From NCBI RefSeq assembly GCF_003952505.1, contig NZ_CP034450.1:3224001-3288000 (forward strand): a DNA stretch of 64,000 nt, in the 5' to 3' direction. Source of the stretch: Mesorhizobium sp. M4B.F.Ca.ET.058.02.1.1. Lineage in GTDB: Bacteria; Pseudomonadota; Alphaproteobacteria; Rhizobiales; Rhizobiaceae. The position numbers and the translations under genes are program-made. The notes beneath the pieces were generated by a model. It did not search any database, was not told where the DNA came from, and was given only the letters and a program-made list of their open reading frames with translations. Positions 3,546 to 57,864 of the stretch are shown in pieces; the first letter of the stretch is position 1; each line of letters opens with the position of its first letter.

Positions 3546-3609
3546 CCTGCTGGTGGTTCGTGGGCGGTGATGCGTAACAGGTCCTGCCAAATCATAGAAC
3601 GCTGGCGCT

Positions 3610-3777
3610 GCCCCTCATTGTCCTGCCGGACATTTCTCCCCGTGAAGAACGGGGAGAAATGCGCTGGCGTTGATGGTTTCGCCACCTGGCGCGTCGCAGA
3701 AAGAGCGGCGAGGTTGCGGCCCTCCCTTCTCCCCGTCCTTCACGGGGAGAAGGTGCCGGCAGGCGGATGAGGGGGGG
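3610..3777. repeat. Paired two-hairpin repeat element, copy E1 (solo)
   Basis: Two inverted arms face each other: 3610-3661 (read on the minus strand) and 3726-3777 (read on the plus strand). Each arm has a hairpin built on TTCTCCCCGT/ACGGGGAGAA (12-bp stems at 3631-3661 and 3726-3754), then a small hairpin with a GGCA loop whose stem differs between arms (TGTCC/GGACA against GCC/GGC), then ATGAGGGG. About 64 bp separate the arms. It fills most of the gap between hemA and the aminotransferase; no gene is seen there. Copies with the same architecture are at 27936 and 55433. Confidence 0.7.
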
Positions 3778-3800
3778 CACCGCCCTTGAAAGTAAGCCGT

Positions 3801-27935: not shown

Positions 27936-28087
27936 CTCCTTCTCCCCTTGTGGGAGAAGGTGGCCTCGCGAAGCGAGGTCGGATGAGGGGTGCTCCAGCT
28001 TGGCAAAGACGGGTGATCCGTCACCTACCCCTCATCCGTCTCGGCGCTGCGCACCGATCCACCTTCTCCCACAAGGGGAGAAGGCGG
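27936..28087. repeat. Paired two-hairpin repeat element, copy E2 (solo)
   Basis: Two inverted arms, about 27938-27991 (plus) and 28027-28085 (minus), share CCTTCTCCCCTTGTGGGAGA, then AGGTGG, and GGATGAGGGGT. Between these constant blocks the left arm has CCTCGCGAAGCGAGG and the right arm TCGGTGCGCAGCGCCGA: different sequences, each a hairpin. The element fills the gap between gguC and the binding-protein gene, where the two genes converge. Confidence 0.75.
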
Positions 28088-54242: not shown

Positions 54243-55412
54243 TCAGAGAGAGCGCCCGATCAGCAATTTCATGATCTCGTTGGTGCCGCCGTAGATGCGC
54301 TGGACGCGAGCGTCGCGGTACATGCGGGCGATCGGGTATTCATTCATGTAGCCATAGCCGCCGTGCAATTGAAGGCATTCGTCGACCACCTTGCCCTGCA
54401 GGTCGCTAAGCCAGTATTTGGCCATCGAGGCGGTGACCGGATCGAGGCCGCCATCGATGTGGCGGGCGACGCAGTCATTGTAGAAGACGCGGCCGATCGT
54501 GGCCTCGGTCTTCAGCTCGGCCAGCTTGAACTGGGTGTTCTGGAAATCGATGACCGCCTTGCCGAAGGCCTTGCGCTCCTTGACGTAGTCGATGGTCAAG
54601 GCCAGCGCGCGCTCGATCATGGCGATCGCGCCGGTACCGATCTGCAGCCGCTCCTGCGGCAGTTGCTGCATCAGCTGGACGAAGCCCTTGCCTTCCTCAT
54701 GGCCGAGCAGGTTCGAGGTCGGCACGCGCACGTCGTTGAAAAACAGTTCGGAGGTATCGTTGGCCTTCAGGCCGATCTTGTCGAGGTTGCGGCCGCGCTG
54801 AAAACCTTCGACCTCGTCGGTCTCGACGACGATCAGCGAAGTGCCCTTGGCGCCCTTTTCCGGGTCGGTCTTGGTGACGACGATGATCAGGCTGGCGAGC
54901 TGGCCATTGGTGATGAAGGTCTTGGAGCCGCTGATCTTGTAGTGGTTGCCGTCCTTCTCGGCGCGCGTCTTGACGCCTTGCAGGTCGGAGCCGGCGCCGG
55001 GCTCGGTCATGGCGATGGCGCCGATCAGCTCGCCGGTCGCGAGCTTGGGCAGCCACCTCTTCTTCTGCTCCTCGGAGCCGTAATGGAGGATGTAGGGGGC
55101 GACGATCGAATTGTGCAGACCGATGCCGAAGCCGTCGACGCCGACATGGCCGATCGCCTCGATGATGGCGCTCTCATGCGCGAAGGTGCCGCCCGAGCCG
55201 CCATATTCCTCCGGCATCGAGGCGCAGAGCAGGCCGGCCGCGCCTGCCTTCAGCCAGCTCTCGCGGTCGACCATCTCGTTCTTCTCGAACTCGTCATAGC
55301 GCGGCGCGATCTCTTCAGACATGAAGCGCGACGCCATGTCGTAGAGCATTGCGACCTCGTCCGCCGCCCAGGCGGGTTTTGGCAAGCCAAGAATTTCGGC
55401 TGGATTTGTCAT
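54243..55412 (-). CDS. Acyl-CoA dehydrogenase (short form)
   Basis: A 389-residue FAD enzyme for the first step of beta-oxidation. Motifs are AIAMTEPGAGSDLQGVKTRA, SKTFITNGQLASLIIVVT, LQIGTGAIAMIERALALTID and the C-terminal DECLQLHGGYGYMNEYPIAR, then MYRDARVQRIYGGTNEIMK, the standard catalytic-base/FAD-tail region. The ATG overlaps the DUF559 stop (ATGA), and its GGAGG site lies inside that gene. Substrate chain length unknown. Confidence 0.93.
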   Translation of the reverse strand: MTNPAEILGLPKPAWAADEVAMLYDMASRFMSEEIAPRYDEFEKNEMVDRESWLKAGAAGLLCASMPEEYGGSGGTFAHESAIIEAIGHVGVDGFGIGLHNSIVAPYILHYGSEEQKKRWLPKLATGELIGAIAMTEPGAGSDLQGVKTRAEKDGNHYKISGSKTFITNGQLASLIIVVTKTDPEKGAKGTSLIVVETDEVEGFQRGRNLDKIGLKANDTSELFFNDVRVPTSNLLGHEEGKGFVQLMQQLPQERLQIGTGAIAMIERALALTIDYVKERKAFGKAVIDFQNTQFKLAELKTEATIGRVFYNDCVARHIDGGLDPVTASMAKYWLSDLQGKVVDECLQLHGGYGYMNEYPIARMYRDARVQRIYGGTNEIMKLLIGRSL

Positions 55413-55852
55413 GCCATTTCCTCCGTGGCGCTGGCGTCCCCCTCCCCCTTGAGGGGAGGGTGGCCGCGAAGCGGTCGGGAGGGGTCGCCGGCGACACGCT
55501 CGGCCTCACCTTTGACAAACTGCGCAACATGCCAGGCGCTATTGATAACATCCGGCTCGTCGATCCTAAGCACGACGTAGCCAAGCGACTGCAAATAAGC
55601 GTCGCGGTTCAAATCATGACGCTTGCCAGCCTCGGTTTCATGCAGGTCGCCGTCGACCTCCACAATGAGTTTGACCGACGGGCAGACGAAATCGACAATG
55701 TACGGGCCGATCGGCGATTGCCGCCTGAACTTCAAACCGTCAGCCGTCAGCTCCCGCAATTCGTACCATAGCAAAGACTCCGCCTTCGTCGCATGGAGAC
55801 GAAGCGAGCGTGCCTTCTGCCGCATTTCGAAACTCACCCGCGTCCGCGGCAT
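55409..55852 (-). CDS. DUF559 (endonuclease/VSR-like) protein, repeat-flanked
   Basis: A 147-residue DUF559 protein from the PD-(D/E)XK fold. It starts MPRTRVSFEMRQKARSLRLH and has LRELTADGLKFRRQSPIGPY and the catalytic region YIVDFVCPSVKLIVEVDGDL followed by HET, RNDAYLQSLGYVVLRID-like residues. Its tail (RPLRGHPPLKGEGDASATEE) is encoded by the left repeat arm and by the ribosome binding site of the next gene, so the natural stop has been replaced by repeat sequence. It stands between two acyl-CoA dehydrogenase genes with which it has no obvious functional link. Inserted as a unit with the repeat pair (E3). Confidence 0.85.
   Translation of the reverse strand: MPRTRVSFEMRQKARSLRLHATKAESLLWYELRELTADGLKFRRQSPIGPYIVDFVCPSVKLIVEVDGDLHETEAGKRHDLNRDAYLQSLGYVVLRIDEPDVINSAWHVAQFVKGEAERVAGDPSRPLRGHPPLKGEGDASATEEMA
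55433..55495. repeat. Left arm of repeat pair E3 (DUF559 side)
   Basis: The arm reads GGCGTCCCCCTCCCCCTTGA, then GGGGAGGG, TGGCCGCGAAGCGGTCGGGA, then GGGGTCG. A fixed hairpin (CCCTCCCC/GGGGAGGG) is followed by a second hairpin GGCCGC-GAA-GCGGTC. It lies inside the 3' end of the DUF559 gene. Confidence 0.75.
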
Positions 55853-55902
55853 TGCGATAGTCCTCCTCCCAGTGCGCATCCGTCAGAATTGGCGTCGAGC
55901 TC

Positions 55903-55963
55903 GTCGCGGGCGACCCCTCCCGACCCTTAGGGCCACCCTCCCCTCAAGGGGGAGGGGGACGCC
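55903..55963. repeat. Right arm of repeat pair E3
   Basis: The inverted copy of the left arm, identical in the constant blocks but with GGCCC-TAA-GGGTC in place of the second hairpin: its stem is changed, yet still pairs. It lies 51 bp upstream of the DUF559 start, between it and the large acyl-CoA dehydrogenase. Confidence 0.75.
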
Positions 55964-55971
55964 GAGCATTT

Positions 55972-57768
55972 CTAGAACGCTTCCGCCGGCAGCGCCATTA
56001 GCGCGTCCGCGCCACTGGAAATGCGGGCAAGCCGCGTCGCCGTCTCCGGCATGATCCGCTCCATGAAGAAGCGCGCCGTCACCAGCTTGTTGTCATAGAA
56101 GGCCGAGGAGCCGTTGGCGCCATCGGCGAGCTTCGCGCCGGCGGCCTTCGCCATCTGCGCCCACATGTAGCCCAACGCCACCAGGCCGAAGAGGTGCATG
56201 TAGTCGGTCGAGGCGGCGCCCGCATTGTCGGGCTTGGCCATGGCGTTCTGCAGCAGCCACATGGTCGCCGCCTGCAGGTCGTTGAGGCCCTTCTTCAGCG
56301 CCTTGGTGAAGGGCGCCAACTTCTCGTCGGCACGGTTCTCCTCGCAGAACTCGCCGACCTCCTTGAAGAAAGCCTGTACGCCGCGGCCACCGTTCTGCGC
56401 CAGCTTGCGGCCGACCAGGTCGAGCGCCTGGATGCCGTTGGCGCCCTCATAGATCATGGCGATGCGGGCATCGCGCACGAACTGGCTCATGCCGTGCTCT
56501 TCGATATAGCCATGGCCGCCGAACACCTGCTGCGCCATCACCGCGTGGTCGAAGCCCTTGTCGGTGAGCACGCCCTTGACCACGGGCGTCAGCAGGCCGG
56601 TGTAGTCGTCGGCCGCCCGGCGATCGTTGTCGTCACCGGCGCGGTGCGCGACGTCCGACTTGATCGCGGTCCACAGCGCCAGCGCGCGGCCGGCCTCGTT
56701 ATACGCCTTCATGGTCATCAGCGAGCGGCGGATGTCGGGATGGACGATGATTGGATCGGCCTTCTTGTCCGGCGCCTTGGCACCCGACAGCGACCGGCCC
56801 TGCAAGCGGTCCTTGGCGTAGGAGACGGCGTTCTGGTAGGCGATCTCCGACAGCGACAGCCCCTGCAGGCCGACGCCGAGGCGGGCCTCGTTCATCATCG
56901 TGAACATTGCCTTCAGGCCGCCATTGGCCTCGCCGAGCAGCGTGCCTTCGGCCTCGTCATAATTCATGACGCAGGTCGAATTGCCGTGGATGCCCATCTT
57001 CTCCTCGATCGAGCCGCAAGAGACGGCGTTTCTTTCACCTGGCTTGCCCGAGGCGTCGAGCTTGAGCTTCGGCACAATGAACAGCGAGATGCCCTTGACG
57101 CCTTCCGGCGCACCCTCGATGCGGGCCAGCACCAGGTGGACGATGTTGTCCGCCATGTCGTGCTCGCCGGCGGAGATGAATATCTTCTGACCGGAAATCT
57201 TGTAGGTGCCATTGCCGTTCGACACGGCCTTGGTGCGCAGCAGGCCAAGATCCGTGCCGCAATGCGGCTCGGTGAGGTTCATGGTGCCGGTCCATGCGCC
57301 CTCGACCAGCTTCGGCAGCCAGGTCGCCTTCTGCTCGTCGGTGCCGTGGGTGATGATGGCGGCGATCGCGCCTTGCGTCAGGCCCGGATACATCATCAGC
57401 GACATGTTGGCCGAGACCATATATTCGGAAACCGCCGTGTGGACCGTGTAGGGCAGGCCCTGGCCGCCGAACTCGGCAGGCGCGGCGAGCCCCATCCAAC
57501 CGCCCTCGCGATACTGGTCGAAAGCCTCCTTGAAGCCCTTGGGCGTCGTCACCGAGCCGTCATCATGGCGCACGCAGCCTTCCATGTCGCCGACACGGTT
57601 GAGCGGATGCATGACGTTCTCAGCGAGCTTGGCGCCCTCGGCGAGGATCGCCTCGAGGACGTCGGGCGTCGCGTCGGAGAAGCCGGGAAGATTGGAATAG
57701 CGCTGATAGCCCAACACGTCGTTGAGCACGAACAGCGTGTCCTGGATCGGCGCCCTGTAGATCGTCAT
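55972..57768 (-). CDS. Acyl-CoA dehydrogenase (large form, ~600 residues)
   Basis: A 598-residue acyl-CoA dehydrogenase with the extended C-terminal domain of the FadE5/DmdC group. It starts [20 protein letters not shown] and has [80 protein letters not shown] and the catalytic [43 protein letters not shown] 57768 has GGAGGA just upstream. It is the first gene after merR on the strand, with a MerR-type operator in its promoter. Confidence 0.93.
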
Positions 57769-57864
57769 GCCTTCCTCCACCCTTGCGGTCTGGCCCTGCC
57801 AGCAAGTTCTCGATCAAAGCGCAGATCGGAGGCTGAGCCAATGTCGACGCCCCGATAGCAAAAA

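Follow-up and report, generated by a model that had tools for sequence, protein, structure and literature searches.

A DUF559 nuclease gene between inverted hairpin arms in Mesorhizobium and the probable partnership of DUF559 nucleases with REP-like repeats

In the present work we analyse a stretch of 64,000 nucleotides from the genome of Mesorhizobium sp. M4B.F.Ca.ET.058.02.1.1 (contig NZ_CP034450.1, positions 3,224,001 to 3,288,000; the whole stretch is called the window below), with the focus on a DUF559 nuclease gene and the pair of inverted hairpin arms that encloses it. The gene lies at 55409..55879 on the minus strand and encodes a protein of 156 amino acids, as taken from the list of open reading frames (ORFs) and from a match to the profile PF04480 (E 3.9e-30, with the domain portion at 55526-55825), the likeness to its relatives starting at about the second methionine, near 55852. 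The left arm is at 55433..55486 on the plus strand and the right arm, an inverted copy of the left one, at 55912..55963 on the minus strand, with both arms belonging to an arm family that is here called C. Each arm consists of a stem 1 (CCCTCCCCCTTGAGGGGAGGG, at 55440-55461 in the left arm and at 55935-55956 in the right arm), a stem 2 (GGCCGCGAAGCGGTC in the left arm) and a GGGAGGGG tail (GGGAGGGGTC in the left arm). It is noted that 55433-55465 and 55931-55963 are 100% complementary over 33 nt, and that a second inward block, 55473-55516 and 55882-55925, has a complementarity of 80%. When folded as single-stranded DNA, the left arm gives two inner hairpins on an outer stem (z -2.60, with 1 of 200 shuffled sequences being equally stable), and the right arm gives a z of -2.07 (6 of 200). 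The left-arm sequence also encodes residues 132-149 of the 156 residues of the protein.

The insertion is flanked by two acyl-CoA dehydrogenase genes on the minus strand, one of 389 amino acids at 54243..55412, whose start codon overlaps the stop codon of the DUF559 gene, and the other of 602 amino acids at 55972..57780, as taken from the ORF list and the neighbour scan. Thiolase and 3-hydroxyacyl-CoA dehydrogenase genes adjoin these two, so that the whole is a run of fatty-acid oxidation genes. An initial annotation, made from the sequence alone, had described this pair of arms (E3) as enclosing only the DUF559 gene, as supplying its C-terminal codons and as sitting between two acyl-CoA dehydrogenase genes of a beta-oxidation run, all of which is borne out. 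It had also described two other pairs in the window, E1 (3604..3781) and E2 (27938..28084), as solo pairs made of the same arms. Solo they are, with no gene between their arms and no strand assigned, but the arms are not the same: the three pairs have in common a scaffold of C-rich/G-rich stem 1, variable stem 2 and GAGGGG-like tail, whereas by reading E3 is of family C, E2 of family B and E1 of a third kind. The spacers, given before as 35-65 bp, are 68 nt in E1 and, in E2, 95 nt between the detected arms or about 25-40 nt if the tails are counted as arm.

Comparison of the window gene with 8 close homologues gives a ratio of nonsynonymous to synonymous substitution rates (dN/dS) of 0.03-0.08, with dS above 1.3 in three of the 8; judging from these ratios, purifying selection acts on the gene. 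The fold of the nuclease appears to be that of Vsr and of an EDxHD homing endonuclease, with conserved acidic and His residues. Among the solved folds, the homing endonuclease I-Bth0305I comes directly after a DUF559 structure in the Foldseek ranking, with the VIA-align comparison being a second look at Foldseek's own matches.

The source assembly (GCF_003952505.1; 6.46 Mb, one contig) has 4 DUF559 loci, and all 4 are located at inverted arm pairs. Among them, the gene of L002 is inside 54-nt arms that are 98% complementary, that of L001 is abutted on one side by a 52-nt pair (92%), and L004 (C1:1629546-1630549), an element of arm family F with 74-nt arms (99%), holds a broken DUF559 gene and a nested second insert. 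The insert that splits this gene has 24-nt perfect inverted ends (GGTAGTGTCTCAGTTTGAAATTTG) and is a mobile element of another kind, lodged within the first. The stem-1 pattern occurs at 195 places in the genome versus 1 for the reversed control pattern, and the stem 1 of the window family occurs at 6 places, 2 of which are the window arms. A family-C solo pair is also seen in frame in a UvrD helicase gene (L006, C1:93316), between the N- and C-terminal domains.

As the initial annotation had anticipated, inverted arms are enriched near DUF559 genes. Here the enclosure score is the inverted similarity between the 400 nt on either side of a gene, and a gene is taken to be enclosed at a score of at least 15. 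Enclosed DUF559 loci number 61 of 90 across 30 genomes of the genus, versus 6 of 780 offset control positions, and at the stricter score of at least 20 the numbers become 52 of 90 and 1 of 780, where the 90 loci are those tested from 120 rows (the remaining 30 being mostly fragments, second halves of split genes and marginal hits in very long frames) and the 780 controls are drawn from 60 of the 90. Small ORFs, used as another control, are enclosed in 3 of 237 cases (those outside long genes) and in 0 of 121. Outside the genus, 44 of 62 loci are enclosed versus 4 of 464 controls (1 of 2 in the family, 11 of 15 in the order, 21 of 30 in the class and 11 of 15 in the rest of the phylum), a count that omits L261, L270 (same genus), L299, L312, L321 and the weak-match rows. 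A protein similarity search supplied further relatives, of which the best 80 out of 218 were kept and 79 had sufficient flank, the margins being equal for gene and control. The distant ones among them are enclosed in 42 of 52 cases versus 0 of 521 controls at a 60-nt inner margin, and in 34 of 51 versus 0 of 518 at a tighter margin of 20 nt. The 27 close relatives are all enclosed at the 60-nt margin and 2 of 27 are at 20 nt, because their match runs into the arm. The enclosed distant loci include those of Pseudomonas, Devosia, Hoeflea, Afipia and Betaproteobacteria as well as metagenome-assembled genomes filed under other phyla, where contamination is possible. Single loci score 102 in Sinorhizobium meliloti, 47 in Deinococcus proteolyticus, 21 in Sphingomonas parapaucimobilis (inside a transhydrogenase operon) and 13 in Picosynechococcus. 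The association of arms with DUF559 genes is real, general and far above chance.

The gene itself is widespread, with matches in 115 of 119 genomes of the genus; among 150 sampled Pseudomonadota genomes, 49 match at E 0.001, some 13 of them only weakly. One protein query each gave matches in 43 of 72,556 plasmid records and in 2 of 50,697 phage records, and given this rarity an origin of the gene from a phage or plasmid was set aside.

Moreover, the arms follow the proteins. We distinguish nine arm families, A to I, by pattern and reading, and group 123 loci by their flanking DNA into 24 rough sites, with one cluster mixing A and B and one mixing D and E. In a tree of 41 DUF559 proteins, which were chosen by hand and labelled from patterns and reading (some labels being one-sided, and the armless site 6 being omitted), each of the nine families makes up one side of a branch. 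The arm family changes 8 times on this tree, which is the minimum possible, versus a mean of 26.5 for shuffled labels, with 0 of 200 shuffles being as low; the grouping of family B is weakly supported (57). The match between arm and clade spans several sites for families A, B and F and two sites for C, and therefore a shared position is no explanation of the match. At the site of L002, D arms are found in some lineages of the relatives and E arms in others, each with its own protein sub-clade. The position of DUF559 genes, in many bacteria, between matching repeats that change from branch to branch of the family suggests an enzyme partnership of the nuclease with these repeats.

At the window site, 30 orthologous loci were read, with 8 having arms and gene, 13 both arms without the gene, 7 one arm and 2 neither, and at least 16 further genomes have by coordinates an empty gap of 40-42 nt. 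An empty orthologous site, as foreseen in the initial annotation, thus exists here, and also for the type-F element L004, whose site is clean and empty in G102 with the flanks 93-94% identical. By eye, the 13 gene-less pairs keep bits of the two ends of the gene (the middle of L063 being an assembly gap and the right arm of L059 being shortened), and the one-arm locus L068 keeps a scrap of the other arm. Read as a series, these alleles show gene-bearing elements decaying into gene-less arm pairs. Stem 2 varies between lineages, and even between both arms of one element, yet remains palindromic, a pattern that looks like arm conversion or exchange.

A family-C solo pair is also present in one variable loop of cobN (PF02514 in L176), in all the 28 readable of 30 lineages. 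The length is a multiple of three in 27 of the 28, the exception being the source genome (L007/L175, C1:184946-185896), where the insert length is not a multiple of three and therefore the reading frame breaks within the insert. The other cobN loci compared are L176-L224, of which 20, the comparison loci, are shorter, all by multiples of three; by eye 3 of the 20 have one hairpin left, and in 2 the loop holds what remains of a family-A arm. On plasmids, a near-identical site free of the element was not seen among the 40 of 161 records listed for the S. meliloti query and the 10 listed for the Sphingomonas query.

Based on these data, we propose that DUF559 genes probably encode the nuclease that partners a large superfamily of hairpin repeats resembling the repetitive extragenic palindromic (REP) sequences, making up a REPtron-like system with a Vsr-like enzyme. 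The proposal builds on what is established, namely the association, seen in many taxa, the agreement of arm family with protein clade, the presence and absence at orthologous sites, the decay series, the purifying selection and the Vsr/EDxHD fold. In the model, each DUF559 clade would have its own arm family, with a C-rich/G-rich stem 1, a stem 2 that varies and a tail of the GAGGGG type, and inverted arm pairs with a short spacer, similar to the inverted REP pairs known as REPINs, would be scattered in the genome, with the nuclease gene sitting between two arms or beside a pair. The arms bound by the nuclease would be its own, in the form of an extruded hairpin or of a three-way junction arising when the DNA is single-stranded, and it would nick or cut at the hairpin or junction, whereupon repair or replication restart could copy the arm pair to new places or convert one arm by another. 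The gene would be mostly vertically inherited, as is said of the genes of the REP-associated tyrosine transposases (RAYTs), with the arm pairs being its non-autonomous population. In their long-lived sites and purifying selection, the DUF559 genes resemble those of RAYTs, which stay put while REPINs spread. It is the cutting or spreading of the arms by the nuclease that we infer here. DUF559 being a widespread family of unknown function, such a cis partner offers a testable substrate.

The copy numbers of the type-F tail, counted in 119 genomes, bear on the model. Type-F tails beyond the own arms of the DUF559-F elements are found in 6 of 8 genomes with DUF559-F (the extra copies being 0, 1, 6, 8, 3, 0, 3 and 13) versus 16 of 111 others, with p values of 4.6e-4 (Fisher) and 1.6e-6 (rank test), both uncorrected for relatedness, with presence being defined by DNA similarity to L004, among the matches listed, together with the genus loci and site clusters. 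The likeness to an autonomous element with non-autonomous relatives, drawn in the initial annotation, is upheld by these counts and by the loss series at the window site; what speaks against it, or leaves it a hypothesis, is that the three window pairs differ in arm family, that no target-site duplication was found, that some genes stayed while the arms changed and that one site of 8 loci lacks enclosing arms. A nuclease that recognises or mobilises the repeats, as also suggested there, is likewise a hypothesis. It is also observed that type-F arms cluster within some hundred kb on G115:C23 and G055:C31, around DUF559-F genes, and at G005:C1:1373376-1514408, which could be either local spreading or a tolerant genomic island.

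Several points weigh against the proposed partnership. For type F, besides the uncorrected p values and the similarity-based definition of presence, 16 of the 111 genomes carry the arms without a listed type-F nuclease, and in G115 and G055 many of the copies are close neighbours. Unenclosed loci amount to 29 of 90 in the genus and 18 of 62 outside, and the single Escherichia coli locus examined scores 10 and is not enclosed. Most of the unenclosed genus loci fall in two sites: site 0 (27 of the 123 loci), where the family-A pair, in the loci in which it is seen, is confined to one side, and site 6 (8 loci), without enclosing arms, where 5 of the 8 carry one stem-1 hairpin on one side. The initial annotation had held that its idea would suffer from a lack of enrichment or from genes present without any arm; the former is not what is found, and the latter is found in part, at site 6. 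Target-site duplication is unreadable at the three sites of the window, cobN and L004, which are all old or in variable DNA. Some DUF559 genes, moreover, have by the look of their neighbours kept their place for long through changes of the arms: in L002 the gene adjoins an AAA ATPase gene, the S. meliloti gene adjoins a 75% identical counterpart, and therefore the site is old. The DUF559 genes of L434 (on pSymB of S. meliloti) and of L134 have a complete pair of inverted arms to either side. A host function could be just as good an explanation for lone genes that are under purifying selection and have long kept their places.

Such a host function is the core of the best of the other explanations, which we nevertheless consider unlikely, namely that the host keeps DUF559 as a hairpin or mismatch repair nuclease that limits or edits the adjacent substrates without spreading them. 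The low dN/dS, the long-conserved sites (site 0 with its 27 loci, and the same ATPase neighbour in Mesorhizobium and S. meliloti), the Vsr-like fold and the rarity on plasmids and phages are all consistent with it, and the available part of PMC12907096 discusses VsrA, a DUF559 protein of Caulobacter, in the role of a nuclease of mismatch repair. However, it is not evident why a nuclease of this kind should lie within its own substrate or follow the arm family so closely, and the type-F arms are more numerous, not fewer, where the matching nuclease is present. A somewhat weaker candidate is homing, in which the arm pairs predate the DUF559 ORF, which then homes into those of its family, with the arms serving as target and repair homology. 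The rank of I-Bth0305I, next after the DUF559 structure, and the numerous stem-1 sites without DUF559 would fit this; by contrast, the apparent remnants of both gene ends in the gene-less pairs at the window site, seen by eye, imply that the gene was lost there.

It is improbable that another enzyme, such as a RAYT or an insertion sequence (IS) transposase, moves the arms and that DUF559 is captured cargo. The arm pairs do resemble REPINs or miniature inverted-repeat transposable elements (MITEs), and type-F arms occur without a listed DUF559-F in the 16 of 111 genomes. This is to be set against the agreement between arm families and DUF559 clades and against the enclosure of DUF559 in many distant taxa; in addition, there is no match to PF01797 (Y1_Tnp) in the source genome and in 26 of the 31 genomes examined, the transposase survey covering Y1_Tnp, and on this result a RAYT as the mover was set aside. 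The few Y1_Tnp loci of the genus (L438-L443) are surrounded by inverted copies of a short repeat peculiar to them (GAATTACGGTGACAGTGCACT, whole or in part), which is unlike the DUF559 arms. Plain terminator or mRNA-stability hairpins that stand around short genes by chance are hardly credible and were set aside on the small-ORF controls, for the arms are indeed hairpins in intergenic DNA but are inverted, enclosing and clade-specific.

Coming back to the partnership of nucleases with REP-like repeats, a second family shows a similar enclosure. Standalone GIY-YIG genes in 31 genomes, taken as a comparison family, have another arm (TTCGTCATCCTAGGGCG...GACCCTAGGATCCATG) enclosing them in 30 of 44 cases versus 1 of 182 controls, where 84 rows were found, the 44 in small frames were tested (loci L444-L460, L463 and L474-L499), and UvrC-type and fragment rows were excluded. 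A CGTCAT head and an ATCCA-type tail are both present in 28 of the 30 enclosed loci, which fits the description of CGTC REPs in the available part of PMC3733652. On named plasmids, 8 of 9 GIY-YIG loci, picked from 39 records, score at least 22. By eye, 7 of the 9 (L503, L504 and L506-L510) have the CGTC-type arm or its stem, two of the seven without the AT-first stem, and the exceptions are L502 with a composite repeat and L505 with none; among the seven are Azospirillum lipoferum and Novosphingobium aromaticivorans, both of which appear in PMC3733652 as far as that text is available. No paper linking GIY-YIG with REP repeats was found in the open-access literature searched, which leaves most subscription journals outside. 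The enclosure bears on a question left open in 2013, that of the enzyme of the CGTC REPs (PMC3733652, in its available part).

We tentatively extend the proposal, with rather less confidence than for DUF559 itself, to at least three unrelated enzyme classes that may serve bacterial REP-like repeats: HUH transposases with GTAG REPs, a known pairing, DUF559 Vsr/EDxHD nucleases with the bipartite GGGGAG/GAGGGG arms, and standalone GIY-YIG enzymes with CGTC REPs. Both nuclease classes would be former homing enzymes, spreading or editing the pairs via cut hairpins and repair. If this is true, a great many DUF559 and small GIY-YIG genes would gain a function and the CGTC REPs an enzyme.

Finally, we compare the DUF559 system with known systems. 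In the open-access literature searched, seen in part and with most subscription journals outside it, no link of DUF559 with palindromic repeats was found. As far as the respective texts are available, PMC8266576 treats TnpA-REP and REP recognition, PMC12308824 notes that in another bacterium repeated segments carrying a transposase and DUF559 are hotspots of recombination, and PMC6712171 has a DUF559 gene in an expression table; the RepRanger paper (PMC12306157) makes no mention of RAYT, transposase, endonuclease, rhizobia or GGGGAG. With respect to Vsr, which in very-short-patch repair works with a cytosine methyltransferase, the scanned neighbours of the window gene include no methyltransferase, the rest of the genome not having been searched. 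PMC12907096, which studies a DUF559 protein as a Vsr, reports in its available part that VsrA of Caulobacter is unlinked to its methyltransferase, and the same part makes no mention of palindromes or hairpins and hence no link to repeats. Unlike I-Bth0305I of the EDxHD enzymes, the window protein is one short domain, outside introns and between hairpin arms, and as regards homing into a gene-less allele, the pairs without the gene at the window site have the look of deletion products. With MITE/IS pairs the elements share gene-bearing and gene-less forms with common ends, but the enclosed gene is not a transposase and no target-site duplication was found. The available part of PMC3733652 sorts REPs into GTAG and CGTC superfamilies, the latter being unassociated with transposase genes and seemingly without a dedicated transposase. 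Like the window arms, CGTC REPs are paired, frequent in Alphaproteobacteria and untied to RAYT (same part of that paper); the window arm GGCGTCCCCCTCCCC has the letters CGTC but not the AT-first stem and CCA tail, and in the genus it is GIY-YIG genes that arms of the CGTC type enclose. The closest comparison is that with RAYT/REP systems (REPtron, REPIN), in which likewise a gene is flanked by short palindromic repeats, inverted repeat pairs are dispersed and enzyme clades have their own repeats. The differences are that the window enzyme is a Vsr/EDxHD-type nuclease (PF04480) and not an HUH tyrosine transposase (PF01797), that the window arms are longer and bipartite, and that by reading no GTAG tag is present in 55433-55486 and 55912-55963. 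The DUF559 system, having neither HUH transposase nor GTAG, is no REPtron by membership, yet it would work like one, and the partnership proposed here would separate repeat-and-enzyme systems from one enzyme class and carry the REP idea beyond HUH transposases alone.
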